Source: Accumulibacter sp. (GTDB lineage: Bacteria > Pseudomonadota > Gammaproteobacteria > Burkholderiales > Rhodocyclaceae). Taken from it: a stretch of 14,006 bases of DNA. The translations under genes were made by a program, and so were the position numbers. Location of the stretch: the NCBI GenBank assembly GCA_031267455.1, contig JAIRZC010000032.1, forward strand, positions 1-14,006, read 5' to 3'. The notes beneath the pieces were generated by a model. The model did not search any database and was not told where the DNA came from. It saw nothing but the letters and a program-made list of their open reading frames with translations. Positions 1 through 11,993 of the stretch are shown in pieces (positions within the stretch are counted from its first letter, which is position 1; each line of letters opens with the position of its first letter).

Positions 1-3000
1 CGTTATATGCAGGGCAAAAGCCAAGGGCAAGCGAAGCGTGAGGCGGAAATCGCACGGCAACGCGCGATGGAAAGATGGGACGAATTTCGCGTAATCCGGG
101 ACGAGGCCCGGAAAATCCAGAACGAGGTTCTCGCGGACATGGGCCTGCCGCCGACCAATCCACCTCCGCCGCCCTCGCCACCTCCTGTCGCGCCGTCTCC
201 GGGCGAGTCGGTTTCGATCGGACAAGACGCGGGAAACCCGCAGCAGCAATTGGCGGCACCACCGAATCCGGCAGAAGGCCAAGGCATCGAGGGCGCATTG
301 CCGGGCGCTGAGCCGGTGGAGCCGGTGGAGTCGGTGGAGTCGGTTGAGTCGGAGCGGGCGCGGTTTGCGGAAAAGGCGGCGGCGCTTTCCAAGTCGCTGG
401 TGACACTGGAAGCGGCAGAGGCGAGCGAGGCCGAGAAGGAACAGGCGCTTCAGGTCGTCACGGAAGGTGTCGCGGGACTGTCTGCCGAACCGACCGAGAC
501 CGGAACACTGGCGGTGTCCGGCCCCGGCGCGCGAAGCGTGGTCAAGGCGATTGTGCCCGGCGCGCGAATGCTGACACGATCGGATGGCGCGGTGGTCGTG
601 GGCAAGAGCGCCGCTCCGCAGGTGATCGAGGCGATCCAGAACGCGAAGACGCTCTGGAATCGCGGACAAAGTTCGAGTTCGCAAACCGTGACGTCGGCCA
701 CGTTCGCGCCGCTCACCGAAAGAGCGAAGGTTCCGGAAGCGAGTGTTCCGAGCGTTCCAGAAGCAGCGATTCCAGAAGCGAGTGTTCCGCCCGTGTCGAT
801 GGGAAATGCGCCGGTTCCAGAAGCAGGCGTTCCGGAAACGCGGGCGTACGCCGGGCAACCGGGCGCGCCGTCCGCGGATGAACGCCAAGAGGCGAATCGG
901 GCGGCGCGGGAAGCGCGGCGGAAGGCGTTTGAATCGAGGTATAAAACTACGATTTATACCGTGAACACGGAAGACGACGGATCGTTCGACGTAAAGCTGC
1001 TCCGCGACAATGACGGGAACGTCGTGATCTTCGATATGTCCGACAATGTTCCGCACATCAAGCTCCCTGCGGCGTTCGCGAAGGATAAAACGGATGAGGC
1101 CGTGCTGGCCTACGAGTACGAGCCTCTAGGCTATCTGTCGTCCACGGAACAGGCATCCCCCGACGCCCGTGGTGAATCTCGTCCATCGAATGCAGAATCC
1201 CAAGGTCTTACAGGCGATGCTGATGGCGATGGAAGAGTGCAAGAAAGATTACGACCTGAAGTAGAAAAACCGTCCGAGACGCTCCGTCAGGACAAGGCGG
1301 AAGCGGCGGGCGCGAAGGAGGATTCCACTTTGGGAAATGCGCCGGTTCCGGGCGGGCGGATTTCGCCGGTTCGGAGAAAGTCTCGCCGCTACGATCTGAT
1401 CGGCGATATTATCGATTTGGGCGGATTGTCCCCGGCGATTGCGCCGGATGTCGTTTCGGATACGGCGTTTCATTCGCACTTGCCCGGTTTGTTCCAGAGA
1501 GGCGCGAGCGAGGATTTGTCGTACATGAGTCGCCTTCTCAACGAAACGCACGGCTGGAATCTGGACGAGGACGGGCGCGAACTCTCCGATCTCATCCGGA
1601 GGGCGGCTTTCGGAGAACGTATTACATCTCCCGAACAGACCGAAGCCGAACTCAACGCCGGGAAAGAACGCCAATACCGCGACTCGATCCGCCAAGAGGC
1701 CGAGAAATTAAATCGGCGCTTACCCAAGGGCCAGAACATCCGAACCGTTGGCGTAAAATTCACCGCCCTCGAAAGGCAAGTGTCGGAAGTCAATGAAGCG
1801 CGTTTGAAAGAGGTTCGCGCCCAGTTGAAGAAACGCGAAGCGGCGTATTCCGAACGATTTTGGCGAGCCTATGAGCAGGCGCGAAGTATACTGGCGGAAG
1901 AAGAAATCGACGCGATCCTGGACGCGATTCCAGACAATAACCATGTTTCCTGGCTTGCCAGGGCAAGGAAAGAACTTGAACAAACCTACGAACGCATCAA
2001 CGCGGAAAAAGACGCCTACGAACGCGGCGGACGATCCGACCCAAGCAGTGGTCAATCGACTGGTCCAGAAAATGAAAGAGAAACTGCTCCAGAACAAGGC
2101 GTTCATGGAGGACCTTCAGGCGCTCGATCCGGAGGATCGGGAGAATATGTTCGAACTGGCGGCGATCGGGATGTTGAAAGATCATCTGGCCGCCAAGAAA
2201 GCCAAGAGAAAGAATCCAAACACCCCGGACTGACGCTCGAAGGACAGACCGAAGCCGAAGCGAAGGAATCGGAACGGCTTCGGGAAGAATCGGATCAGGG
2301 ACTTTCCAAGGAGCAGATCGACCGGGAACGGGAGGCTTTTACGCTTTCCGGAGAAAGTCAGGCGAAACCGCAGGGCAGCCAGTCGAACCTTTTTACGCCC
2401 GACGGAAGAGCGAGTCAGGCAGCCGAGGCGAAGGCTTCGTCCGAGGCCTTCATTCCCGCACCGGGCGGCGAGAACGACTACGGCGCGATTACGCCGGAGA
2501 TGGCACGCGCGATGAAGCGCCAGTCCGGGCCGATCCGACTCCAGCAGGGCATTCAGAACGCCGATGGCACCGGCTGGGGATTGGCGCATATCGAGGCCAA
2601 TCACGGAGAACAGATACGGCGAGCCGGATTTGCTTCGGTCGAGGATTTTGTATCGCGTATCGCGGCTAATTTCAACCGGGTTTTACAGACATCGAACGCT
2701 CAGCTTCTCGTGGCGATTACGGACGGTCGTCAGGAGGTGATGTTTATTCAGCTTTCGCCGTCGTCGGAAGGGGATTTTTATCGGGTGAACACGGCGTTCC
2801 CGGCCAGTCGCGATTACTTGGCCAAGCAAGAGCGGAAAAAGGGCTATCGGATGCTCTGGGACGGGAGCGAACCCGCGTCTGCTGTCGCCGGACAACAACC
2901 CCTATACGCTGGCAGTCCTGAATCAAAGTCCGGTCAGGATGCCCCCATCGCTCAGGGCCAAAGCAGTGATCCCACTATAGCACAGAACGCGGATTCCGGA

Positions 3001-5889
3001 TCGGCGGGCGAAACGTATGACCAGAGATACTATCGCCGGCATCATTCGGGCGATGGAATGTCGGAATGGGGCCACGCGATGATGTCCGATGAGGAGGAGC
3101 GCGTTGGTCATTACGGGCCGAAACTCTTTATCGCCGAACTCGACGGGAACTATGTGGGCGATGAATTGCGTGAAACGATTATCGAGGCATGGCGAAAGAG
3201 CGAAGAGGAAGGCAACGCGCCGGAAGGCTATGGGCCGGAAGACTCCGACGAACTCTCCGACGAAGAGATTATCGATCTGTTCAACCCGGAGGATATTGTC
3301 GATTCCGCGGCGGGCTTCGATAACGGAGAATTGGCCGAATGGTTCTATCGGAACGTGGTCGAACCGAATGACCTTACGTATGTGACGACCTACGACGGCG
3401 CGGTAGTCTTCGATCCCGCGCTTTTAGAGCGCGTCCAAGAGGAATACGAGCAGAGCGGCGCGCCGAAGAACGCGGTTGAGAAGCCGGAGGCCATGCGCCG
3501 TCTGGTGGATAGCGCTCTTTCCGAAACAAACGCCAATCAGACCGTGCGTATCGTACCGGTTTCCGAACAAGAAGCGCGGGCTGCCAGCGAACAGGCCGGG
3601 CTAGATATTTCAGGTTATACGCATACAGCGGATATGTTTGCCGTGCGTCATGCTTTGAATCAGCATGGCGATGCGAAGAAAGAAGCAAGGCGCGGACAGA
3701 TTGCCATCGGGCGTGAAGATGTGGCTGCTGTGCCTGACACTCTGGCTGCTCCAGATGCTGTCGTCTATGGAGCGAAAAACAATCGAGGGCAAGACTTGAT
3801 CGCGTCAATCAAGCGAATGCCGGACGGCACGCTGTTGATGGTGGAAGAAGTACGGACGGGAAAAAAGACGCTCGCGCTTACAAGCTTACGGAAGTATCCC
3901 GCCGCGAAAGATTTCAGTTCGATTGCTCGGACTCTGCTTTCCAACGCCCAAAGCGACGGCGGGAATGGACTGATTATATTCGATCCGAAGCAAGCGAACA
4001 AAAAATTATCGATCCCGCAAGACTTCTCGGTGGCGGGAAAGGCCGTGGCCGAGCAACTCGCGGCGACGGGACGGTATTCTCCCAAGGAAGTTTCGTCGTA
4101 TGCCGCGCTCGTCGATGCGTTCTACAAGACGCTCGCGACGCGCACCGGAATGCCGGTCGATGAACTCTGGACGAAGTATCCGCTGAAAGTGGTGGCGATG
4201 CTGGACGCGATGAGTCGCGCGGGTTTTGACCAGTCCGCTTACCACGGTTCGCCGCATCGGTTCAGCAAATTCACGCTGGATCACATCGGTTCGGGCGAAG
4301 GCGCGCAAGCCTATGGCTGGGGCCTGTACTTCACCGACCTGAGGGAAATCGGGGAATTTTATCGGACGAAGCTCACGCGTAATCGACAGGTTGAGCGGTT
4401 TTACAGAAAACCCGGTGCGGAGTATAGCCGATTCGTCCTGACAAACGAAGGCTGGGTCGCCGAGAATGACGATGCTTCCGATTTCATGAAGGCGACCGTA
4501 GCGGAAACTCTTGGGCTAAATCTCGCGGACGCCGTGGGGATCAATCAGGCGAGAAGGGATATTGAGGCTTTCCTGGGCGAAGACGATAAAAGACTCTCCG
4601 ACAAAGGGCGCGAAATCTTAGATTCCTGTGATACCTCGGACTTTTACATACTGTTGGACGCGGAAAACTTTCTCAAGGATATAGAGGTCGGAAAAGACGA
4701 GGGCCAACTCTACATAGCCGAGATTCCGGACAACGATGTTCTGCTCGATTGGGACACGCCGCTCTCGGAACAGCCGGAGAAGGTGAAGAAGGCGCTCTCC
4801 GGCCTCAAGAAACTTTTGCCCAAGAACGCCTTGCCCGATCTGGACGGCGACTGGAATGTGCTTTTCGGGGACGAAAACACCGGGAGTGAATTTTACGAGA
4901 CACTGACCGCGCTCGTGGGCAGCGACAAGAGGGCGTCGACGCTCTTGAACCAGGCCGGCATTCCCGGTCTGCGCTATCTGGACGGCGTTTCGAGAGGCAA
5001 GGGCGAAGGCACACACAATTATGTGATCTTCGACGATCAAACCATTGAGATTCTGGAGACGTTTTACCAGAACGAGAAGAACGGAAAGTCGCCGCGCGGT
5101 TCGTTCGATCCGAAAAGGCTTTTGACCACGTTATTCGAAGGGGCCGACCGTTCGACCTTCTTGCACGAGAACGGGCATTTCTTCCTTCAGATGTACGAGA
5201 ACCTGATCGGTGACGCGCTTTCTTCCGGAACGCCTTTGACGCGCGGCCGGATGATCCTCCAGCAGGACTTTTTGAACGCGATTCGCTGGGCGGGTTTCGA
5301 GGGATCGTTCAAGGACTGGCAGAAACTCTCGATGAACGAAAAGCGCCCTGTCCACGAGAAATTCGCGCGCGGGTTCGAAGCGTATCTGCGCGAAGGGAAA
5401 GCGCCGACGCCGAAACTGAAGGGGATTTTCGAATCGTTCAAGGAGTGGTTGAGAGCCATTTACAAGCGCCTGACTGATTTGAAGGTTCAACTGACACCGG
5501 ACGTCCGGAGTCTCATGGATCGGATGCTGACGACGGACGGCGATGAAGGGGTTTCGACCGGGATGGACGCGGCGAAGGGCCGTGCCCAGCCGCTCACGTC
5601 CCGCGTACTCACGCCTTCCGGTTACAGGTTCATGGGTGAGATTCGCGCAGGCGACGCGGTGATCGCGGCTGATGGTTCCACGACGACGGTGACGGCGGTC
5701 TATCCGCAAGGAAAGAAACCGATTTACCGAATCGTGCTTTCGGACGGAAGCCGCGCGCGCTCGACGGCGGACCACTTGTGGAAGGTGCGGGAAGAGCGCG
5801 AGGAAGATTTCAAGGTGATGCCGTTAGAAGCGATTCTGCGCGGTTTTGCCACGGGCCGGCGGTATGAGATTCCACCACTCGCTTTTTGA
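1..5889 (+). CDS. Giant phage polyvalent protein, N-terminal part, ending in an intein N-half (5' partial)
   Basis: The frame is open at the window edge; the first ATG is at 7 with no room to judge a ribosome site, so the gene probably begins upstream. Numbered from that ATG it is 1960 aa. Order seen: charged coil and Pro-rich stretch (1-62), acidic and VPEA repeats (about 102-278), a small domain (318-380), a DLIGDIIDLGGLSP segment (about 460), a PBECR-like nuclease-type domain with GWGLAHIEANH (about 841-957), a second PBECR-like domain with RHALNQHGD (about 1163-1298), an ADP-ribosyltransferase-like domain starting YHGSPHRFSKF (about 1412-1690), a zincin with HENGH (HExxH, 1720-1724) followed by a FARGFEAYLREGKAP helix that may give the third ligand, and an intein N-half from 1860. 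Such proteins are thought to be injected with phage DNA and act on host defence; that role is inferred from family. Two internal stretches look better coded in another frame (see the tails at 1154 and 2024). No transmembrane segment is evident. Confidence 0.85.
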   Translation, partial: RYMQGKSQGQAKREAEIARQRAMERWDEFRVIRDEARKIQNEVLADMGLPPTNPPPPPSPPPVAPSPGESVSIGQDAGNPQQQLAAPPNPAEGQGIEGALPGAEPVEPVESVESVESERARFAEKAAALSKSLVTLEAAEASEAEKEQALQVVTEGVAGLSAEPTETGTLAVSGPGARSVVKAIVPGARMLTRSDGAVVVGKSAAPQVIEAIQNAKTLWNRGQSSSSQTVTSATFAPLTERAKVPEASVPSVPEAAIPEASVPPVSMGNAPVPEAGVPETRAYAGQPGAPSADERQEANRAAREARRKAFESRYKTTIYTVNTEDDGSFDVKLLRDNDGNVVIFDMSDNVPHIKLPAAFAKDKTDEAVLAYEYEPLGYLSSTEQASPDARGESRPSNAESQGLTGDADGDGRVQERLRPEVEKPSETLRQDKAEAAGAKEDSTLGNAPVPGGRISPVRRKSRRYDLIGDIIDLGGLSPAIAPDVVSDTAFHSHLPGLFQRGASEDLSYMSRLLNETHGWNLDEDGRELSDLIRRAAFGERITSPEQTEAELNAGKERQYRDSIRQEAEKLNRRLPKGQNIRTVGVKFTALERQVSEVNEARLKEVRAQLKKREAAYSERFWRAYEQARSILAEEEIDAILDAIPDNNHVSWLARARKELEQTYERINAEKDAYERGGRSDPSSGQSTGPENERETAPEQGVHGGPSGARSGGSGEYVRTGGDRDVERSSGRQESQEKESKHPGLTLEGQTEAEAKESERLREESDQGLSKEQIDREREAFTLSGESQAKPQGSQSNLFTPDGRASQAAEAKASSEAFIPAPGGENDYGAITPEMARAMKRQSGPIRLQQGIQNADGTGWGLAHIEANHGEQIRRAGFASVEDFVSRIAANFNRVLQTSNAQLLVAITDGRQEVMFIQLSPSSEGDFYRVNTAFPASRDYLAKQERKKGYRMLWDGSEPASAVAGQQPLYAGSPESKSGQDAPIAQGQSSDPTIAQNADSGSAGETYDQRYYRRHHSGDGMSEWGHAMMSDEEERVGHYGPKLFIAELDGNYVGDELRETIIEAWRKSEEEGNAPEGYGPEDSDELSDEEIIDLFNPEDIVDSAAGFDNGELAEWFYRNVVEPNDLTYVTTYDGAVVFDPALLERVQEEYEQSGAPKNAVEKPEAMRRLVDSALSETNANQTVRIVPVSEQEARAASEQAGLDISGYTHTADMFAVRHALNQHGDAKKEARRGQIAIGREDVAAVPDTLAAPDAVVYGAKNNRGQDLIASIKRMPDGTLLMVEEVRTGKKTLALTSLRKYPAAKDFSSIARTLLSNAQSDGGNGLIIFDPKQANKKLSIPQDFSVAGKAVAEQLAATGRYSPKEVSSYAALVDAFYKTLATRTGMPVDELWTKYPLKVVAMLDAMSRAGFDQSAYHGSPHRFSKFTLDHIGSGEGAQAYGWGLYFTDLREIGEFYRTKLTRNRQVERFYRKPGAEYSRFVLTNEGWVAENDDASDFMKATVAETLGLNLADAVGINQARRDIEAFLGEDDKRLSDKGREILDSCDTSDFYILLDAENFLKDIEVGKDEGQLYIAEIPDNDVLLDWDTPLSEQPEKVKKALSGLKKLLPKNALPDLDGDWNVLFGDENTGSEFYETLTALVGSDKRASTLLNQAGIPGLRYLDGVSRGKGEGTHNYVIFDDQTIEILETFYQNEKNGKSPRGSFDPKRLLTTLFEGADRSTFLHENGHFFLQMYENLIGDALSSGTPLTRGRMILQQDFLNAIRWAGFEGSFKDWQKLSMNEKRPVHEKFARGFEAYLREGKAPTPKLKGIFESFKEWLRAIYKRLTDLKVQLTPDVRSLMDRMLTTDGDEGVSTGMDAAKGRAQPLTSRVLTPSGYRFMGEIRAGDAVIAADGSTTTVTAVYPQGKKPIYRIVLSDGSRARSTADHLWKVREEREEDFKVMPLEAILRGFATGRRYEIPPLAF
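310..354 (+). repeat. Tandem 9-base coding repeat (EPV/ESV)
   Basis: Five near-identical 9-base units beginning GAGCCGGTG or GAGTCGGTG, in phase with the reading frame, encode an EPV-EPV-ESV-ESV-ESE linker. Such repeats change length easily by slippage, so linker length probably varies between relatives. Confidence 0.8.
726..839 (+). repeat. VPEA-type imperfect coding repeat
   Basis: Repeated Val-Pro-Glu-Ala and Ile-Pro-Glu-Ala units encoded by variants of GTTCCGGAAGCG and GTTCCAGAAGCG, roughly six units. It reads as a Pro-rich flexible spacer between modules of the polyvalent protein. Confidence 0.7.
800..818 (+). repeat. 19-bp direct repeat, copy 1
   Basis: TGGGAAATGCGCCGGTTCC occurs here and again at 1331-1349 in the same reading frame, both times encoding GNAPVP. 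The pair brackets one module of the protein and may be a site of module exchange. Confidence 0.75.
1154..1264 (+). other. Alternative-frame coding tail 1 inside the polyvalent gene
   Basis: In the +1 frame relative to the long ORF this stretch reads HPPTPVVNLVHRMQ, then a Met/Leu/Glu/Lys-rich helix, and stops at TAG 1262-1264. Third codon positions look G/C-biased in this frame and A/T-biased in the long frame, whose reading (GDADGDGRVQER and neighbours) looks like an out-of-frame shadow. No good start codon with a ribosome site precedes it, so it would be reached by a frameshift or is a relic of a former gene end. It shares PT-x-VVN-x-LV-x-x-M with the tail at 2024. Confidence 0.35.
1331..1349 (+). 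repeat. 19-bp direct repeat, copy 2
   Basis: Second perfect copy of the repeat at 800-818, again in frame and encoding GNAPVP, 531 bases downstream of the first. The stretch between the copies contains the small domain near residues 318-380 and alternative-frame tail 1. Confidence 0.75.
2024..2233 (+). other. Alternative-frame coding tail 2 inside the polyvalent gene
   Basis: The +1 frame reads DDPTQAVVNRLVQKMKEKL, then an acidic and basic helical segment with MEDLQALDPEDREN and AAIGMLKDHLAAKKAKR, ending at TGA 2231-2233. Codon third positions are strongly G/C here, whereas the long ORF over the same bases gives a Gly/Ser/Arg-rich low-complexity peptide with A/T third positions. It may be the true C-terminus of an upstream module joined by a frameshift, a short overlapping gene starting at an internal ATG or GTG, or a relic. 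It resembles tail 1 at its start. Confidence 0.4.
5584..5886 (+). other. Intein (Hint) N-terminal half
   Basis: The last 101 residues of the first giant ORF match intein splicing blocks A and B: AQPLTSRVLTPSGYRFMGEI, then GDAVIAADG, VTAVYPQG and STADHLWKV. The presumed first residue is Ala after GR, not Cys, Ser or Thr; together with the Trp in HLW this fits class 3 inteins. The sequence runs into RRYEIPPLAF and stops, at the place where full-length relatives go from an IPL motif into a LAGLIDADG endonuclease domain. The matching C-half lies at 7230-7376. Either trans-splicing occurs or the intein is decayed; sequence alone does not decide. Confidence 0.75.
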
Positions 5890-5923
5890 GGATTCAACAC
5901 CATTGTTTCGATCCAAGTATGTA

Positions 5924-5937
5924 CCTATTGGAATAGG
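5924..5937. repeat. Perfect 6-bp-arm palindrome at the left cassette edge
   Basis: CCTATTGGAATAGG lies between the stop of the intein N-half and the end of the minus-strand toxin-like gene. It could be an insertion-site remnant or a weak operator. No U-run follows on either strand, so it is not a convincing terminator. Confidence 0.35.
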
Positions 5938-5959
5938 GAGCGTGGAAAAAGCGTGTCTT

Positions 5960-6259
5960 TCAGGGGCACCGGTCGATTTCGTCATGCGAGGCGACGCGAC
6001 GCAATATCGCGATATTGCCTTCGATTTCCATCGATATTTTGTAGTTTCCCGTTACATGGACACTGTAAATGTCCGGCTTCGCATAGCCTTTGAGTTTTTC
6101 AAAGCGCAAACCGGAGGGTATAGGACGTTTCGCCAGTGCTTGCAGGCATTTGTCTACGCTGTCACGCAGGCTTATTTCAAGCTTGCCGTACTCTTTGTGA
6201 AACGATCGCCGTTTTTTCCAAAAGATGATTTCAATGCCGCCGACTCCTACGACGGTCAC
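5960..6259 (-). CDS. RelE/ParE-superfamily toxin-like protein
   Basis: 99 aa. The start is GTG at 6259, sharing GTGA with the stop of the upstream gene (6256-6258), a coupling typical of toxin-antitoxin operons. The protein is small and basic: an FWKKRRSFHKEY start of helix 1, a second helix around residues 29-44, GLRFEKLKG at 50-58, then beta strands YSVHV, NYKISMEI and IAILRRV, and a C-terminal HDEID at 92-96. This is the layout of RelE/HigB/ParE-fold toxins, whose members cut ribosome-bound mRNA or poison gyrase; which target applies is unclear. It sits between two intein halves, antisense to the host gene. About 70 bases separate its stop from the intein N-half stop. Confidence 0.65.
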   Translation of the reverse strand: MTVVGVGGIEIIFWKKRRSFHKEYGKLEISLRDSVDKCLQALAKRPIPSGLRFEKLKGYAKPDIYSVHVTGNYKISMEIEGNIAILRRVASHDEIDRCP

Positions 6260-6762
6260 CGGCGTAAATCCGAGAGAAGCGCGTCAATCGTGCTAAAAAC
6301 GGGAAGATCGTCTGTAGGCTCCGCATTCAAGTCGTGCTTGAGGGTGGCGAGTCTTACCGCCATCAAGTCTTCGTGCAGCAGAGCCGCGTTCGTAATGGCT
6401 TCTTCGTATGCGTCGTGCAACGATTCCCGGTGTTCAGCAGACAATCTGTCGTCAAGGTCAATACTGGCGCGTTTTGCCAGCATGCGCGGCAGGTACGATT
6501 CGAGAGCGGATTCCGCTTTACGAAAGACATCGATTTTTTGGGCGTCCGGGTCGAGGTATTCACCGGCGACAACAGACAGATTCGATATTTCCGTCGTCAG
6601 ATGGGAGAGAACGCGGGAAAAATCCGAGAAATCGGCGGCGCGTTGCGCCAAGGCGTCAACCGTTGCGTCAATATCCGCCAACAGGTCGAGACGGGTGGTT
6701 GCCCAAGCCAACTCCGTGGCATGGGCAAATTTACCGGAAGAAGGAAAAATTCGTATTTTCAT
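6256..6762 (-). CDS. Putative antitoxin, 168 aa, family not recognised
   Basis: ATG at 6762 begins MKIRIFPSSGKF; an in-frame TTG at 6783 falls before the putative -10 box and is unlikely to be used. The product looks almost entirely alpha-helical and acidic, with helices about residues 15-50, 55-72, 85-105, 112-140 and a C-terminal DLPVFSTIDALLSDLRR. No DNA-binding ribbon-helix-helix or helix-turn-helix motif was recognised, and it is about twice the length of common RelE-partner antitoxins. Function is inferred only from position: immediately upstream of, and overlapping by four bases, a RelE-like gene. It might instead be an unrelated helical protein. Confidence 0.6.
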   Translation of the reverse strand: MKIRIFPSSGKFAHATELAWATTRLDLLADIDATVDALAQRAADFSDFSRVLSHLTTEISNLSVVAGEYLDPDAQKIDVFRKAESALESYLPRMLAKRASIDLDDRLSAEHRESLHDAYEEAITNAALLHEDLMAVRLATLKHDLNAEPTDDLPVFSTIDALLSDLRR

Positions 6763-6768
6763 GATCGT

Positions 6769-6785
6769 ACCAGTATACGACAAAA
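6769..6785 (-). repeat. 17-bp direct repeat with -10 box, copy at the antitoxin
   Basis: ACCAGTATACGACAAAA on the plus strand (TTTTGTCGTATACTGGT on the minus strand) is identical at 7169-7185. It includes the palindrome GTATAC and sits just upstream of the antitoxin start, directly after the broken protease stub. Confidence 0.8.
6772..6777 (-). promoter_or_regulatory. -10 element (TATACT) of the toxin-antitoxin module
   Basis: TATACT on the minus strand ends nine bases before the antitoxin ATG (6762), so transcription would begin at, or two to four bases before, the start codon. The message would be leaderless or nearly so, and no Shine-Dalgarno sequence is visible. A matching -35 box is poor. 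The GTATAC palindrome could serve as operator. Confidence 0.4.
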
Positions 6786-6788
6786 CTT

Positions 6789-6911
6789 TTATTCACAGGG
6801 AGGGATGGGCGCGCCCGTCTTTTTCAGAACTTCCGCGCGGTATTGGCTTATGCCGATGCTTACCGATAAGAGCGCCCCTTGTGAAGTTATCAGCAGGTTT
6901 ATGGCGGGCAT
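6789..6911 (-). pseudogene. Truncated start of a retropepsin-like aspartic protease gene
   Basis: From ATG 6911 a 40-codon frame reads MPAINLLITSQGALLSVSIG, then KKTGAPIPPCE and TAA (6789-6791). The N-terminal pattern resembles small phage or bacterial aspartyl-protease-like proteins that start MPxINxxxxxxGPxxxVxIG and go on to an ALIDTGA active-site motif; here the frame ends where that motif would follow. It overlaps the end of the upstream gene by 13 bases, as coupled genes do. The break lies within a few bases of the 17-bp repeat, so the downstream part was probably lost when the toxin-antitoxin block joined. The family call is from memory of pattern. Confidence 0.45.
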
Positions 6912-7138
6912 GGAACGATCGGGCGCGAAATGAACAAAGCGTGTTCGGCGAGCATGATTCTCTTGACCAGGAAGACATCAAGCCCGAATTGCGCGTATCC
7001 CTGCTTGAGCGCGTCGCCGTAGGTATCGAACGTGCCGACGATTTCGTCCCCCTTGATGAGAACAAATTTCCCTTGCTGTTCCAGCAACGAGGAAAGATTG
7101 GCGTTGTATGTGGCCACTTCTTTGTCCAGGACGCCCAT
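6899..7138 (-). CDS. DUF5678-like small protein
   Basis: 79 aa starting at ATG 7138, chosen because GGGAGGGAACA before it gives a good ribosome site; the frame extends to a TTG at 7183 lying inside the promoter-like repeat. The core GKFVLIKGDEIVGTFDTYGD, then ALKQGY and FLVKRI, is a compact alpha/beta pattern matching DUF5678-type proteins, of unknown function. Relatives are often found directly upstream of a small aspartyl protease-like gene, and here too a broken stub of such a gene overlaps its 3' end. It is the first gene of the minus-strand cassette and has its own promoter-like sequence. Confidence 0.6.
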   Translation of the reverse strand: MGVLDKEVATYNANLSSLLEQQGKFVLIKGDEIVGTFDTYGDALKQGYAQFGLDVFLVKRIMLAEHALFISRPIVPCPP

Positions 7139-7168
7139 TGTTCCCTCCCATTCATCCACAGTACGCAA

Positions 7169-7185
7169 ACCAGTATACGACAAAA
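7169..7185 (-). repeat. 17-bp direct repeat with -10 box, copy at the DUF5678-like gene
   Basis: Perfect second copy of the element at 6769-6785, 400 bases apart, in the same orientation, each preceding a minus-strand gene. Confidence 0.8.
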
Positions 7186-7198
7186 TTGTTTATTTCAA
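7172..7198 (-). promoter_or_regulatory. Putative promoter of the cassette
   Basis: On the minus strand TTGAAA (7198-7193) and TATACT (7177-7172) are separated by 15 bases, shorter than the 17-base optimum. It lies about 34 bases upstream of the DUF5678-like start and includes the 17-bp repeat. Confidence 0.45.
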
Positions 7199-7200
7199 GC

Positions 7201-7215
7201 GGTAGATTTTCTACC
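7201..7215. repeat. Perfect inverted repeat at the right cassette edge
   Basis: GGTAGATTTTCTACC, a 6-bp stem with a 3-base loop, lies between the cassette promoter and the intein C-half start. It overlaps the in-frame stop TAG (7203-7205) that closes the C-half frame upstream. It could be an insertion remnant, operator or mRNA hairpin before the C-half gene. Confidence 0.4.
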
Positions 7216-7229
7216 AGAAAGTGTTTGCA

Positions 7230-7376
7230 ATGAAGCTGTTGACTTCCTCGATCACCCCCTTCGCTCCGCGCTTCATTACCGGTATCTTCCCGGATGGTGA
7301 GGAAGAGGCGCAATGTATCCGTATCGCGCACCCGTCCCGGATGTATGTCACGGATGACTTGATTCCCACGCACAAC
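7230..7376 (+). other. Intein (Hint) C-terminal half
   Basis: Residues from ATG 7230 read MKLLTSSITPFAPRFITGIF, then GEEEAQCIRIAHPSRMYVTD and DLIPTHN followed by Thr. This is a clear match to intein blocks F and G: Cys in block F (AQC), penultimate His-Asn and +1 Thr. With Trp in the N-half it completes the Trp-Cys-Thr triad of class 3 inteins. At 49 residues it has the size of a natural split-intein C fragment. The last intein residue is Asn at 7374-7376, and the C-extein begins TYATEDAAK. Confidence 0.8.
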
Positions 7377-10300
7377 ACGTATGCGACAGAGGACGCGGCG
7401 AAGGACGCGGTCTTTCAGCAGGCGGCGGACGAATCGAGCGAGATTCCGAGCTTTGCCGAAACGGAGAAGGCTTACGGCGGAAAAAGGTCTTATCAGAAGG
7501 CAAAGTCCGCGAAGAAGACGAAGCTCAATTACCGACAGTGGATACAGGTCAGAACACCCGAGTTCAAGAACTGGTTCGGCGATTGGGAGGCGGCGCGAGG
7601 TGTCCGGAAGCTGGACAAAACAAAAGCGGCGAATCTGGACGGCGTGACGCCCGCTTCTGACCAAAAAGCCGTAGAAGCGTTGTTCAAGGGATTCGGCCCG
7701 GTCAAGAACACGGAAGACGGTCGTTCGGTTACTTTTCCGGTCGGCATGGCTGGAAAGATCGTCCGGCACAAGGGCTTTGACGTCAAACGGATCGCCGGGG
7801 CGTTCGATAAACTCTTCGCGAACGCTGTTCCAATGGGGTCAGAACTTGAGGAGAGAAGAGAAGGACACAAAGCGCATCCGGAAATTTCCGCCTACCATCA
7901 CTACGTCAGTAAGTTTGAGCAGGATGGCCAAGCGTACTATGTTCGCTTCTCCGTACAAGAGATGACAGCGAAAGAAGGGCAGCCGGGGAGAAACTTGGCG
8001 CACTCTTCTTTTGTTTCCGAAGTCGCTGTATACGAACAAGGCGCGAACCCTGAATCTGCCGGGGGCCGGGTTATTGACCCGGTCTTAACAGAGGGTGCCG
8101 CGCCTGTTGATCGCAAGTTAGCACAATGGCTCGAAAAAGGCAACCCCGCCACCGTCTCCAAGGTGGTCGACCCGGAGACGGGGGAACCGAAGGTGGTGTA
8201 TCACGGGACAGACGCGGAGTTTAGCCGGTTCATGAAGAAGTACGGCGGCAGAAGCGGTTCAGACGATGGGAAGCTGGGTTTCTTTTTTACCGATAACAGA
8301 GAGGTTGCAACGGATTACGCGGGCAGGAGCATGAAGGACGGATCGCCGCTCCCCTCCGGGCGCGTCATGGAAACCTTCCTCCGCATCAAAGAACCTGCCG
8401 CCTACGATCTTCGCGGGACCGGCGCTATCGGGGCAATGGCGCTCAAGCCACATATTCGCCTCGCGAAAAAAGAAGGACTCGATGGCATTATTTTCAAAAA
8501 CCTGAAAGACCCCGGTGGAGTTATATTTGGAACGCATGCGCCTAGCACCATCATAATCGCCTTTGCCCCCAATCAGATCAAATCGGCGACGGGCAACACC
8601 GGTGAATTCTCACCGAAGAACGATGAAATCTACCGGCAGGACGCGGAAGAGAACGGCCTTCGGCGGGCCAAAGCGCGGTTGCTGCGAATCGGGAAAACCA
8701 TTCGGGAGGGGCATCAAATCTCGAATGAACCCATTGATCTGGGAAAGACGCCGGAAGTCCTGACGCGGCTGGGGGTTCCGCAATTGCCGATGCGGATTCC
8801 CGATCCGAAGAAGCTCTTTCAGATCGTCGGGAAGGAAGGAGAAGGACGGCACGGCATCGACCCGGAAACGCTTTCCGAGGTGCCGGAGGCCCTGCATCAT
8901 CCGCTGGCGGTGTTTTCCTCGCGGACGCAGGACAATGCGTTCGTGATCGTGATGGAATTGAAAGATGGCGAAGGAAGACCTGTCGTCGCCGCGCTTCATG
9001 CCAACGCGCGTCAGGGACGAATGGAAATCAACCGGATATCGTCGATCTACGGAAAGGACAGCGCCGCCCGGATTTTTGGGCAGTGGGCCAAGGAAGGACT
9101 GTTGAAGTATCTGGACAAAAGCAAGCCCGAAGCGCTCCAGTCCGCCGGGCTCCAATTGCCCATGGAGGGAACGACATCGGGCTTGCCGAAGACTATAGCG
9201 CAGACCGGGAATAAAGACAAGGGCGACGTCTTCAATCAGGACGCGTTGCCCGCTGCCTCGGTCGATCCCTCGCCTTCTCCGTCGTCTCCGTCGCTTCCGT
9301 TCTCGCCGCCGGTGAAGTGGAACTATGTCCTTCCGGACGAGAAACTTGCCGCGAGGCTGGATTCGCTCCAGTTCGACTATCAGGATCGGTTTGTCGATAT
9401 GAAGCACATTATCGAGGCGATCCGGAAGACCGGCAAGGCGATTCGCGAGGAATTCAACCCTTATGCCGAAGAATCGACGATGCAGGGCCGCGTGATGCGG
9501 CGTATCAAGACCTTCAAACTGAACGAAGAAAAGCCGATTTTCGATTCGCTGGAAAAAATCGGCGTCTCGCTTCAAGACTTCCATACCTTCCTTCACGCGC
9601 GGCACGCGCCGGAGAGGAACGCGGAGATGAAGCGGCGAAATCCGGGTAAGGCAGAACTCGACGCGAGGATCAAGAAGGCGGAAGCAAAACTTCAGTCGGC
9701 GCTTATCGAAGACCGAAAAGACGACGCGACGCGGATTGAAGAGGAAATCGAAGACCTGAAGGCGATCGAAGCCTTTACGGGGACGGAAGACGAGCGCGCC
9801 ATGCTTTCGGGAATGAGCGATGAGGAGGCGAAGTCGATTCTCGAAAAATGGAAAAAGAGCGAGCACGCTTCGGAAATGGATCGGCTCGGGAACGCGGTCG
9901 ATCAGATCGTTCGCGGAACGCTCGACGAGATGCGCTTGGCCGGGCTGGAGACCGAAGAGACGTTGATCCGGATTGAAGGAATGTATAAGCACTACGTTCC
10001 CTTGCAGCGCGACCTTTCGAACGTTTTGGGCGATGAGGCGCTCGCCGGGGATGGGACGGGCCGAAGTCTCGGGAACGTGAAGGGGTCGAGCTTTAAACGC
10101 GCGACGGGTTCTTTGCGCAAGGTGGAGAATATCTTTGCGCAACTTGTCGCGGCGCGGGAAGCGGTGATCGTTCGCGGGGAAAAGAATCAGGTGATGCAGG
10201 CGTTGTATGGGCTGGTTCTCGATAATCCGAATCCGGAATTCTGGATGACGATCAAGCCCGGAACGCCGGCGGTGGCGGTCCGGAAGAAGCTGAGGGCTTC

Positions 10301-11801
10301 AGGAGCGGAGGCAAAGGATATTGCGGCGCTGGCGGGTCAGATGACGGTGCGCGTGCTCGATCCGGAAACGGGAACGGTGCGGACGGTGCTGAATCCGTAT
10401 TGGAAGAAGCTCGATAACGTGACGACGTTCCGCTTGAACGGGGAAGACCGGCTGATTGTGTTTAACCGGACGAACGATGCGGCGCTGCGTCTGGCGCAAA
10501 TACTCAACGGGTCGCACGCTTCGTATAAGCCCGCCCATGATCTCATAACCGCGATCGGGAAGGTGACGCGCTGGGCGGGTGGGGTGAATACGACGTTTAA
10601 CCCGATCTTCGGGATCACGAATTTTGAGCGCGATATTCAGTCGGCGCTCCTGAATCTTTCGAGCACGGAGTTGGGCGAGGATTGGGGGAAGCAGTCTTAT
10701 GAGGTCGCGAAGACGGTTCCGGCGTCGGTGCGCGCGCTGTGGCGTGAGGCGCGGGGCAAGGGGAATACGGGCGAGATGGCGACGTATGTTCAGGAATTCT
10801 TCACGTCGGGCGCGGTGACGGGTTATCGGGAAATGTTTTCGACGATTGAGGAGCGCGTCAAAGCGATCGAGAATGAAATGCTCGGAAAAGGTCTCCGGAA
10901 TATGCGGGGCGCGAAACAACTGCTCGACCTTGTGTCGGATTATAACGGGTCGATCGAGAACGGGACGCGCCTTTCGGTATTCATCGCGGCGCGTAAGAAG
11001 GGTCTGTCAACACGACGGGCGGCGGTGATTGCGAAGGATATTACGGTGAATTTCAACCGGCGGGGCGCAAAGACCGGACCGGCGGCAATGCTGTATATGT
11101 TCTTTAACGCGCGGGTACAGAGCGCGGAACGGACACTGCGAACACTCAGGGGACGACATGGGAAGAAGATCATCGCGGGAATGATGGTGGGAGCAGAAGA
11201 AGTCAAAGCCTCCTCCGGCTTGTCGCTATCCTTTTCCATCCCTGAGCAAAAAAAACAGCCGTGGCCTTCGGTTGCCTTTACACATACTATTCCTTCTCCG
11301 CTGTTTGAGAGCCTGTCAATGAATACATCGAATTTTGCGCGAAGGGGCGGCGATTCGGAAGAGGGTCAAACATCGGATCCAAGGAGAGATTTGAAGCGAA
11401 AACTCGAAGCGAGTATGAGACTACCTGCGCTTCTGCAGAAACTGGCGGAGTGGACGGGATACAAACACGGCTCAACCATGGGGAATTCAAGACAACAATC
11501 CATTAAATGCCTACAAAAATGCCTACTACGAGAACGATGTTCAGGGCCTTGTTTCGCATTTCAGTTCTTCGCACAGAGCTTGCCACGCCGAGAGTTTCAA
11601 GGCGTCTTCGGCGCAGTTTGCGACGACTCGATCAAAAAACTGTTTGCGCTCGGTTTCATCATCCACCCCGACACGGGGGGCATCCCCGCGCAGGGAACCG
11701 CGACGGGCGTTTTCGTTGCGCACGCGGCGAAGCTCAGCGTCGTAACGAGCGCGAGCGCCCGCGCGTATTGCGTCGATCTGTTTTTCATAGGTACTCCGTA
11801 G
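7230..11801 (+). CDS. Giant phage polyvalent protein, C-terminal part, starting with an intein C-half
   Basis: The frame opens after TAG 7203-7205; GTG 7221 or ATG 7230 could start it. ATG is preferred, though its upstream AGAAAG is a weak ribosome site. Numbered from 7221, order seen: intein C-half (4-52), AYGGKRSYQKAK and TPEFKNWFGDWE (84-124), an LPD3-like domain (about 157-277), a second ADP-ribosyltransferase-like domain starting VVYHGTDAEFSRF (327-460), a MuF-C-like domain (about 490-647), a Pro/Ser linker, and an LPD38-like region (about 704-1313) including ARHAPERN and NTTFNPIFGITNFERD. After IIAGMMV (near 11190) family-like sequence is lost, and from 11541 the frame is antisense to Rz, so the true end is uncertain. 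If the intein splices, this part joins the first ORF into a chain above 3300 aa. Confidence 0.8.
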   Translation: MKLLTSSITPFAPRFITGIFPDGEEEAQCIRIAHPSRMYVTDDLIPTHNTYATEDAAKDAVFQQAADESSEIPSFAETEKAYGGKRSYQKAKSAKKTKLNYRQWIQVRTPEFKNWFGDWEAARGVRKLDKTKAANLDGVTPASDQKAVEALFKGFGPVKNTEDGRSVTFPVGMAGKIVRHKGFDVKRIAGAFDKLFANAVPMGSELEERREGHKAHPEISAYHHYVSKFEQDGQAYYVRFSVQEMTAKEGQPGRNLAHSSFVSEVAVYEQGANPESAGGRVIDPVLTEGAAPVDRKLAQWLEKGNPATVSKVVDPETGEPKVVYHGTDAEFSRFMKKYGGRSGSDDGKLGFFFTDNREVATDYAGRSMKDGSPLPSGRVMETFLRIKEPAAYDLRGTGAIGAMALKPHIRLAKKEGLDGIIFKNLKDPGGVIFGTHAPSTIIIAFAPNQIKSATGNTGEFSPKNDEIYRQDAEENGLRRAKARLLRIGKTIREGHQISNEPIDLGKTPEVLTRLGVPQLPMRIPDPKKLFQIVGKEGEGRHGIDPETLSEVPEALHHPLAVFSSRTQDNAFVIVMELKDGEGRPVVAALHANARQGRMEINRISSIYGKDSAARIFGQWAKEGLLKYLDKSKPEALQSAGLQLPMEGTTSGLPKTIAQTGNKDKGDVFNQDALPAASVDPSPSPSSPSLPFSPPVKWNYVLPDEKLAARLDSLQFDYQDRFVDMKHIIEAIRKTGKAIREEFNPYAEESTMQGRVMRRIKTFKLNEEKPIFDSLEKIGVSLQDFHTFLHARHAPERNAEMKRRNPGKAELDARIKKAEAKLQSALIEDRKDDATRIEEEIEDLKAIEAFTGTEDERAMLSGMSDEEAKSILEKWKKSEHASEMDRLGNAVDQIVRGTLDEMRLAGLETEETLIRIEGMYKHYVPLQRDLSNVLGDEALAGDGTGRSLGNVKGSSFKRATGSLRKVENIFAQLVAAREAVIVRGEKNQVMQALYGLVLDNPNPEFWMTIKPGTPAVAVRKKLRASGAEAKDIAALAGQMTVRVLDPETGTVRTVLNPYWKKLDNVTTFRLNGEDRLIVFNRTNDAALRLAQILNGSHASYKPAHDLITAIGKVTRWAGGVNTTFNPIFGITNFERDIQSALLNLSSTELGEDWGKQSYEVAKTVPASVRALWREARGKGNTGEMATYVQEFFTSGAVTGYREMFSTIEERVKAIENEMLGKGLRNMRGAKQLLDLVSDYNGSIENGTRLSVFIAARKKGLSTRRAAVIAKDITVNFNRRGAKTGPAAMLYMFFNARVQSAERTLRTLRGRHGKKIIAGMMVGAEEVKASSGLSLSFSIPEQKKQPWPSVAFTHTIPSPLFESLSMNTSNFARRGGDSEEGQTSDPRRDLKRKLEASMRLPALLQKLAEWTGYKHGSTMGNSRQQSIKCLQKCLLRERCSGPCFAFQFFAQSLPRREFQGVFGAVCDDSIKKLFALGFIIHPDTGGIPAQGTATGVFVAHAAKLSVVTSASARAYCVDLFFIGTP
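11248..11274 (-). terminator. Weak Rho-independent terminator for the lysis operon
   Basis: On the minus strand CAACCG, a 7-base loop, then CGGCTG form a 6-bp stem with one A-C mismatch, followed by eight T. It lies about 270 bases beyond the Rz stop, in the direction of lysis-operon transcription, and inside the degraded 3' end of the convergent gene. Confidence 0.35.
11309..11506 (+). pseudogene. Orphan coding-like fragment, alternative frame, in the degraded 3' region
   Basis: A 65-codon frame from just after TGA 11306-11308 to TAA 11504-11506 reads EPVNEYIEFCAKGRRFGRGS, then KERFEAKTRSEYETTC and HGEFKTTIH. The residue mix looks like a real globular protein, unlike the overlapping long frame, but it has no start codon. 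It may be a relic of the original C-terminus of the polyvalent protein or of a lost neighbouring gene. The family was not recognised. Confidence 0.25.
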
Positions 11802-11993
11802 CTCGGTTAAATTTTCCTCATGCGCGGCTTTGATTTCTGCTTGTTCTTTCCGCGCTTTCTCGCCTTCGACCTGTACCGTTGCCCGATACGCCGTGAACTC
11901 GGAGACATTGGAGCGGTACATCCACCCGAGGATCAGCAACGCCGCCACGAGCGACGCGGACACACCGGCGAGGAATTTATCGATGGTCGGCAT
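11541..11993 (-). CDS. Rz: Rz-like inner-membrane spanin
   Basis: 150 aa, ATG 11993, with ACGGAG six bases upstream. An N-terminal transmembrane anchor covers about residues 6-24 (LAGVSASLVAALLILGWMY), followed by a periplasmic coiled coil rich in Glu, Lys, Arg and Ala (about 35-95), and a C-terminal part with three Cys. This is the i-spanin layout: it pairs through the periplasm with the lipoprotein Rz1 to fuse inner and outer membranes in the last step of lysis. Rz1 is nested inside in another frame, which strongly supports the call. It is last in the lysis operon, and its start overlaps the preceding gene by 17 bases. Its 3' end converges on the giant plus-strand gene. Confidence 0.88.
   Translation of the reverse strand: MPTIDKFLAGVSASLVAALLILGWMYRSNVSEFTAYRATVQVEGEKARKEQAEIKAAHEENLTELRSTYEKQIDAIRAGARARYDAELRRVRNENARRGSLRGDAPRVGVDDETERKQFFDRVVANCAEDALKLSAWQALCEELKCETRP
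11597..11788 (-). CDS. Rz1: Rz1-like outer-membrane spanin lipoprotein, nested in Rz
   Basis: 63 aa from ATG 11788, with ACGGAG and a five-base spacer upstream, wholly inside Rz in a different frame. Residues 1-22 are a lipoprotein signal: MKNRSTQY, a hydrophobic core, then the lipobox LSFAAC. The mature protein begins at that Cys and is short and rich in Pro and Ala (CATKTPVAVPCAGMPPVSG), as usual for o-spanins. It should be lipid-anchored in the outer membrane and bind the Rz C-terminus. The embedded layout is the classic lambda-type arrangement. Confidence 0.85.
   Translation of the reverse strand: MKNRSTQYARALALVTTLSFAACATKTPVAVPCAGMPPVSGWMMKPSANSFLIESSQTAPKTP

Follow-up and report, generated by a model that had tools for sequence, protein, structure and literature searches.

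A naturally split class 3 intein in a prophage polyvalent gene, with toxin-antitoxin-like and other genes between the halves

Inteins are thought to persist through endonuclease homing. The fractured genes that Dassa et al. are said to have described in 2009 (gp41-1, NrdJ-1 and IMPDH-1) reportedly contain split inteins of class 1, with endonucleases between the halves. We have analyzed a stretch of 14,006 nucleotides from Accumulibacter sp. (contig JAIRZC010000032.1; the whole stretch is called the window below) in which the gene of a giant polyvalent phage protein is broken by the N-half (IntN) and the C-half (IntC) of an intein, and toxin-antitoxin (TA)-like genes are found between them. As in gp41-1, NrdJ-1 and IMPDH-1, the break is inside the intein and there are genes between the halves, but the cargo at the window and its relatives is varied and mostly antisense. 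The same sequence family includes phage helicase and terminase inteins that are class 3-like and contiguous, in which GK precedes AQPL at the first junction and THN precedes T at the second. These inteins, which we take to sit at the P-loop site, are in one frame (332-416 aa in 131 of 146 rows, 118 distinct), while those described here are split and located in linkers, with G-R or G-H before the Ala.

The closest described system is the split class 3 intein AceL NrdHF. The source paper gives 0 split inteins among 1701 class 3 inteins in a protein database, and one split intein from a metagenome (PMC7891396). According to the same paper, AceL NrdHF resembles the window in having Ala1, class 3 chemistry, a split at the endonuclease position, a phage-like contig and a fractured gene, and its halves are of similar length (98 + 48 aa against 101 + 49 aa in the window). 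It differs in having a GIY-YIG gene between the halves, nrdHF as host gene and MCT as triplet, where the window has the full WCT, a polyvalent gene and, here and in relatives, TA or other cassettes. Among the titles and abstract openings listed by one open-licence library, none describes intein halves separated by a TA or other cassette. Comparing these sequences, we consider it likely that the locus is a cargo dock made by a split intein and often carrying TA modules.

The split intein of the window

The window is an entire contig (C156); the draft genome to which it belongs has 1.39 Mb and is 59.8% complete. It has the gene content of a prophage, with the polyvalent gene as two open reading frames (ORFs; 7-5889 and 7221-11801 in the ORF list) followed by endolysin and holin genes on the opposite strand. 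A previous examination of the DNA by a model that used no database searches (the sequence-only reading) had placed intein halves at the end of the first giant ORF and at the start of the next one, and our analysis confirms this with exact borders. IntN (5584..5886, plus strand, 101 aa) starts with Ala1 (5584-5586), preceded by Gly-Arg, and is closed by a stop codon at 5887-5889. IntC (7230..7376, plus strand, 49 aa from its ATG) ends in His-Asn (7371-7376, the terminal Asn at 7374-7376), immediately before Thr+1 of the C-extein at 7377. Position 1 is without a Cys, Ser or Thr nucleophile, as in class 3, and the complete WCT triplet is present, with the Trp at 5779-5781, the Cys at 7314-7316 and the Thr at 7368-7370. 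The signature positions given for class 3 are Trp N3:12, Cys C2:4 and Thr C1:5 (PMC7891396). IntN, IntC and a long plus-strand ORF (5846-7300) occupy three different frames. The intein is naturally split, with the halves in separate frames and the break at the endonuclease position, and the same applies to three relatives, G015, G087 and G344 (genomes are cited by G numbers and loci by L numbers).

The N-extein (7..5583, plus strand) ends in DAAKGR, and its frame stays open as far as the first bases of the contig. It matches PBECR3 in Pfam (E 8.6e-24) and, partially and under the cut-off, ART-PolyVal (E 0.0023), and its last domain resembles Bbp10 of Bordetella phage BPP-1 (42% over 57% of the query). 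The C-extein (7377..11801, plus strand) starts with TYATED and contains the Pfam domains LPD3 (7.7e-8), ART-PolyVal (4.8e-24) and MuF_C (2.2e-24). IntN matched the intein-containing PHROG families of helicase loader (E 1.1e-16) and terminase (E 1.6e-8), the PDB inteins gp41-1 (E 7.7e-8) and DnaB (E 1.3e-6) and, by tblastn, 441 phage records. IntC was recognised through its position and its 75-88% identity over ~40 aa to three other IntCs. The dN/dS values (Nei-Gojobori, with dS near saturation in several pairs) were 0.34 (window-G015) and 0.26 (window-G087) for IntN, and 0.077 (window-G015) and 0.14 (G344-G399) for IntC. By sequence, the halves are a class 3 split intein under purifying selection, and it is very probably a functional one.

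We searched for relatives in a host-family sample of 395 genomes of the larger group, in which the window's own genome (G000) is counted. Split-type halves were found in 10 of the 395. A profile of three split IntNs found 19 places in 18 genomes, and the IntC profile 19 places in 19 genomes. At eight IntN places (G000, G015, G087, G428, G429, G399 and two in G344) a stop codon appears 101-134 aa after Ala1. Among the other eleven, eight are considered contiguous because an equally long frame contains IntC (G048, G151, G167, G241, G265, G286, G323 and G366), and those in G025, G210 and G273 were assigned to neither class. Ala1 and the W are invariant in the eight split IntN rows, and so are the C and the THN motif in the eight intact split IntCs. 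Polyvalent-type domains are present in seven of the eight split IntN ORFs, that of the window included; the IntN ORF of G087 (246 aa) had no match, and the C-half ORF of G087 is related to the C-extein of the window. An order-level search found the intein in 14 of 300 genomes at E<=1e-15; one of these is the genome of the window, and in the remaining 13 the frames measure 660-1261 aa. Judging these by frame length, the split form appears to be restricted, among the genomes searched, to the host family. Public entries exist for two split-intein relatives (JAIRPF010000164.1 and JAIRPW010000006.1), and the public names of G015 and G087 are Accumulibacter sp. Cf509_bin25 and Zoogloeaceae bacterium Cf509_bin62. 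The isolate label had suggested that the named MAGs come from termites; this found no confirmation and we do not claim it.

Viral loci of IMG/VR were also classed for splitting, one set being the best 80 of 155. The split class had three members, and none of them has a cassette like that of the window. We have discarded all three as split members: in L296 the frame seems to be broken, in L306 a break seems to separate IntN from a frame resembling an endonuclease by eye, and in L275 the pair is a separate IntN match preceding a contiguous intein. In the viral loci 72 IntN rows, redundant and some incomplete, had no detectable IntC. A run-on match had suggested an intein at this site in phage zth2-2 (L046) and in an IMG/VR contig (L042), but the alignments show none.

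The genes found between the halves

The first antisense gene of the window codes for a RelE-superfamily toxin-like protein (5960..6259, minus strand, 99 aa). The sequence-only reading had called it RelE-like, and the fold bears this out: a Foldseek search with its AlphaFold2 model (pLDDT 75.5, built from six sequences) gave as best PDB match 3bpq_B (E 3.3e-6, TM 0.78), while the score against the HigB-like family PF05015 was under the curated cut-off (E 0.009, 16.9 bits against 27). Overlapping it by 4 nt is the gene of a helical partner (6256..6762, minus strand, 168 aa). The AlphaFold2 model of the partner is made only of helices (pLDDT 88) and found nothing in the PDB at E<=0.001; Pfam gave no DNA-binding family and only a weak match, under the cut-off, to T4 gp30.3 (PF08010, E 0.0014). 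The same pair is found at five more loci (G389, G084, G054, G122 and G145). The order is partner and then toxin in 6/6 loci, in unrelated contexts, as expected of type II TA pairs; the overlap is of 4 nt in 5/6, and in G389 the genes are 3 nt apart. The G389 pair abuts another IntC, and no intein half was found near the other four pairs. Of the earlier proposal of an overlapping antitoxin, the overlap and the conserved pairing stand, and the role itself is putative: we label the partner in this way because of gene position alone. Compared with the RelE, HigB and YafQ type II toxins, the fold and the gene pairing are alike, but the partner is helical and lacks the family and structure matches just mentioned. 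We consider the RelE-like toxin and its helical partner a candidate TA family of its own. The toxin had no match in phages and the partner none in plasmids; in a set of 148 related genomes, window included, the toxin was present in seven and the partner in three. PADLOC gave weak matches only, the best being the G429 toxin (E 3.8e-5) and a DUF4145 gene of G344 (E 2.8e-4). Stand-alone pairs of toxin and helical partner were observed in four genomes other than that of the window (L111 9386-10191, L113 9215-10026, L114 12071-12867 and L115 8761-9623).

The second antisense group starts with a DUF5678-like gene (6899..7138, minus strand, 79 aa, with its ATG at 7138 and the ORF open to 7183). The family named in the sequence-only reading was indeed the one matched (PF18929, E 0.014), although under the cut-off. 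The protein is 55% identical to the product of a gene in the G344 gap that itself has no DUF5678 match. What had been called a protease stub is a 40-aa ORF followed by a stop codon (6789..6911, minus strand). The ORF is there and has no Pfam match; it may resemble the beginning of a retropepsin-like protease.

The six main ORFs of the window gap (four on the minus and two on the plus strand, smaller overlapping ORFs being outside the scan) had no endonuclease match in Pfam or PHROG. The gap is in this respect as had been read from the letters, and differs from the known fractured genes. The main ORFs of both strands in the gaps of the relatives (not every small ORF) gave no significant endonuclease match either. 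A 70-aa stretch of the G344 gap (L151:7905-8114) and the IntN tail of G087 may resemble endonuclease remnants, and we make no claim of it: the scores were non-significant (E 0.16 against phrog_16880 and E 0.93, respectively), and the G344 stretch found nothing by tblastn in phages or plasmids. LAGLIDADG was present in all three contiguous relatives scanned (G126, G048 and G109). An intein-free relative of the same genus, G012, has a contiguous gene of 2948 aa with the same flanking domains, joined by a 38-aa linker unlike that of the window.

Both halves are on one contig in four genomes (window, G015, G344 and G087), and the contents of the gap are different in each. The G015 gap (642-1666) is filled almost fully by a Panacea antitoxin gene (PF13274, E 7.4e-24) and a 129-aa neighbour (phrog_19071), a presumed toxin by position, without Pfam match. 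In G344 there are a repeat-rich coil, a DUF4145 gene, the homologue of the DUF5678-like gene and a P63C gene. In G399, which has a coil and P63C, the halves are terminal on two contigs with 38 identical bases in common. Those of G429 are on two non-overlapping contigs, and beyond IntN there is a RelE/ParE toxin (TIGR02683, 9.5e-36) with its antidote (TIGR02684, 1.4e-32), a pair not linked to IntC. G195 has only IntC, next to a Panacea gene (PF13274, E 5.3e-24) where the contig ends. Apart from these four, three genomes have the RelE pair, Panacea or P63C directly next to IntC. The gap genes of G015 and G195 have the Panacea domain in common with PanAT modules (PMC8832971); they differ in being located in split-intein gaps, with a presumed toxin lacking a Pfam match in G015 and none recognised in G195.

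A TA-like cassette standing where an endonuclease would be is not peculiar to the window: it recurs in G389 (RelE pair), G015 and G195 (Panacea) and, beyond IntN, in G429. Altogether TA genes are in or beside the site in 5/10 genomes (these four and G000), counting the G015 toxin by position, the G195 antitoxin alone and the G429 pair unlinked to IntC. The partner family (G000, G389), Panacea (G015, G195) and P63C (G344, G399) are each present in 2/10 split-intein genomes, once per genome, and all six copies adjoin an IntC. The next ORF upstream of IntC is antisense in 8/8 intact split IntC loci; in 7/8 it matches a family or has a homologue at another locus, and in G429 it does neither. The first gene that follows IntN is antisense in 5/8, the second G344 site being cut by the contig end.

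Two tandem split sites were observed in a single polyvalent gene of G344 (L151, that is G344:C134:6001-20395; 6141-6464 and 13722-14030), in the order IntN, IntC and second IntN. To yield the full protein, trans-splicing would have to take place twice, without cross-reaction between the two steps. The loci described here contribute four class 3 split inteins whose halves share a contig, and a gene split at two sites; the new ligation pairs may have practical use.

Proposed function and alternative explanations

The similarity of cassettes and inteins was compared between genomes. The window and G389 have the RelE pair in common (69% and 48% identity) and IntCs that are 69% identical; the window and G015 have 86% identical IntCs and unrelated cassettes, in a comparison covering 36 aligned residues per IntC. 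In G344 a remnant of an IntC head (55 nt, 82% to the G408 IntC, E 2.6e-9) abuts P63C and is followed by a full IntC. In G399 a remnant of an IntN tail, with a weak profile score (E 0.027) and on the same strand as IntC, also abuts P63C, and the 75%-identical DNA common to G344 and G399 starts at this IntN-tail/P63C border. Since the cassettes do not track intein similarity, and intein-end remnants flank cassettes at two loci, the data suggest that cassettes have been swapped and stacked. The cassette genes also gave low dN/dS values (toxin 0.19, partner 0.21, DUF5678-like 0.15, Panacea 0.22 and P63C 0.075).

We propose that a naturally split class 3 intein interrupts the prophage gene of the giant polyvalent protein, that the two pieces are translated separately and that the halves then associate and trans-splice, which would join ...DAAKGR to TYATE.... 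If the halves trans-splice, the gap can house genes inside a long phage gene with the gene product intact. The cassettes would be autonomous, and since most of them run opposite to the phage gene and diverge from IntC they could be expressed in the lysogen while the late phage genes are silent; that of the window would comprise the RelE-type toxin, the helical partner and the DUF5678-like gene. Exchange and stacking would probably take place by recombination with the intein halves as common flanks, as the remnants and the mismatched histories suggest, and a TA cassette should help to retain the prophage allele. Phage morons are accessory genes with their own expression among late genes; unlike morons, these cassettes would be inside a gene whose product is restored by protein splicing. 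We think it quite probable that the gap is a dock with exchangeable cargo. A more ambitious version is put forward tentatively, as a serious possibility: that a prophage lineage turned homing inteins into splicing arms that host interchangeable, mostly antisense cassettes, often TA, at no cost to the product, with the arms as homology for exchange, TA replacing homing and the RelE partner as a new antitoxin family. TA-based maintenance as a main role is possible, with rather more doubt. Split inteins with gaps taken over by exchangeable TA and other cassettes would mean that inteins can persist in a second manner, and that phages could carry passenger genes inside a gene.

A number of observations weigh against the dock, among them the dS saturation, the short IntC alignments and the weak G399 score given above. 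None of the five Hint or intein matches of IntN in Pfam reached its curated cut-off (best E 0.0088; best Hint_2 score 16.9 bits against 28.4, for short halves scanned apart), and PF14890 (Intein_splicing) had no match in the source genome. IntC alone had no match in Pfam or NCBIfam and none significant in PHROG (best E 0.25), and its profile matched no intein in the PDB. The G087 gap contains an antisense head-closure gene (phrog_8040, E 8.7e-66), which is structural and not an accessory module. G389 has only IntC, with a terminase-like gene upstream instead of IntN. G195 has no recognised toxin beside Panacea; G408 has only a truncated IntC; G428 has only IntN, and the cargo of its gap is without identity. 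In G015 the frame of the C-extein seems to be broken shortly after IntC, and in 2/8 places (G428 and G429) the gene after IntN is in sense. Some of the loci G087, G015, G408, G195 and G389 may be decaying. Finally, the split-type genomes are all drafts, and the two named relatives carry one sample label, Cf509.

The sequence-only reading had proposed that the intein allele could be stabilised by addiction rather than homing. In full, this would mean that the TA genes replace the endonuclease and keep the allele by post-segregational killing, with other cargo secondary or decayed. The TA genes at half of the ten split-half genomes, the restriction of the partner and Panacea families to split sites within them and the LAGLIDADG of the contiguous relatives are all consistent with this. 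However, the cargo of G344, G399, G087 and G428 has no recognisable TA, the pairs of G195, G015 and G429 are respectively without a recognised toxin, with a toxin by position only and unlinked to IntC, and the RelE pair is found also outside inteins (G084, G054, G122 and G145). The recurrence of TA cassettes supports the view that such a cassette stands in place of an endonuclease, but as the cargo is not always TA, addiction cannot be the whole story, and the broken copies among the loci also speak against it as the only role. As a sole explanation we regard it as somewhat unlikely and prefer the cargo dock, because several gaps have no recognisable TA. Homing could also proceed in trans, an endonuclease encoded elsewhere still spreading the split inteins and the cassettes being hitch-hikers. 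The two possibly endonuclease-like pieces in G344 and G087 (E 0.16 and E 0.93, non-significant) would fit this. So would AceL NrdHF, a known split class 3 intein whose halves flank an endonuclease gene (PMC7891396). But the main ORFs of the window gap lack an endonuclease family match, and the flanks of the split sites differ, with nothing in common but a G-R or G-H that precedes Ala1 and a T or S that follows the Asn (most contiguous relatives listed have G-K before the A and T after the N). Because so little is shared, the split sites would be a poor target for a site-specific enzyme, and homing in trans is very unlikely.

Decay by insertion, the alternative named with the addiction proposal, would mean that cassettes entered by chance an intein, until then contiguous, in a gene that is dispensable, the fragments persisting without splicing. 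The interrupted frame of G015, the truncated IntC of G408, the structural gene in the G087 gap, the G389 IntC without upstream IntN and the location of the prophage fragments on small contigs speak for it. It fits the window poorly: the signature residues are intact in both halves and dN/dS is below 0.35 for both, well below 1. The same architecture with different cargo is on four contigs, and the eight split-type IntNs all end alike, while eight relatives of the same family keep both halves in one frame. We consider decay improbable for these reasons. The contigs come from draft metagenomes, and a misassembly had been named as a possible source of the arrangement. It is hardly conceivable, because three other contigs, divergent in sequence, show the split as well; the four contigs are of different genomes and two are public records.

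Repeats and minor features

Two copies of a repeat starting with ACCAGTATACGACAAAA are found in the window, one at 6769..6790, upstream of the partner-toxin genes, and the other (91%) at 7169..7190, between the DUF5678-like gene and IntC. Its 17-base box ACCAGTATACGACAAAA precedes both antisense gene groups and is possibly a shared promoter or operator. The box was not found at <=3 mismatches in 12 other loci scanned, and a scan for sigma-70 promoters at 5500-7500 found 0 against 1.6 expected. A direct repeat of 14 nt, GGACGCGGCGAAGG, is present in the N-extein flank (5565..5578) and in the C-extein flank (7391..7404), a length reached in 0/1000 codon shuffles of both flanks. No such flank-to-flank repeat was seen in the stretches of G015, G087 and G344 examined.

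At the end of the second polyvalent ORF, an antisense ORF of 150 aa (11541-11993) overlaps its 3' end (11541-11801), and the final ~100 residues look different from the remainder and may correspond to a shifted frame. A gene for a terminase small subunit is near the split halves in G429 (L149 1188-1838, 1912-2530; phrog_1206, 2e-31) and, by 87% DNA identity to it over 245 nt, in G389 (L183 5974-7140); the gap of G429 and G389 may span ordinary phage genes. The antisense coil gene of G344 contains in-frame tandem repeats of 21/42 nt (L151 6526-6882), with an Alanine_zipper match under the cut-off (E 0.00038). A 65-nt piece of the G399 P63C gene (L181 10846-10909) resembles, inverted and at 84.6%, the region after the IntN of G429 (L149 3780-3842).

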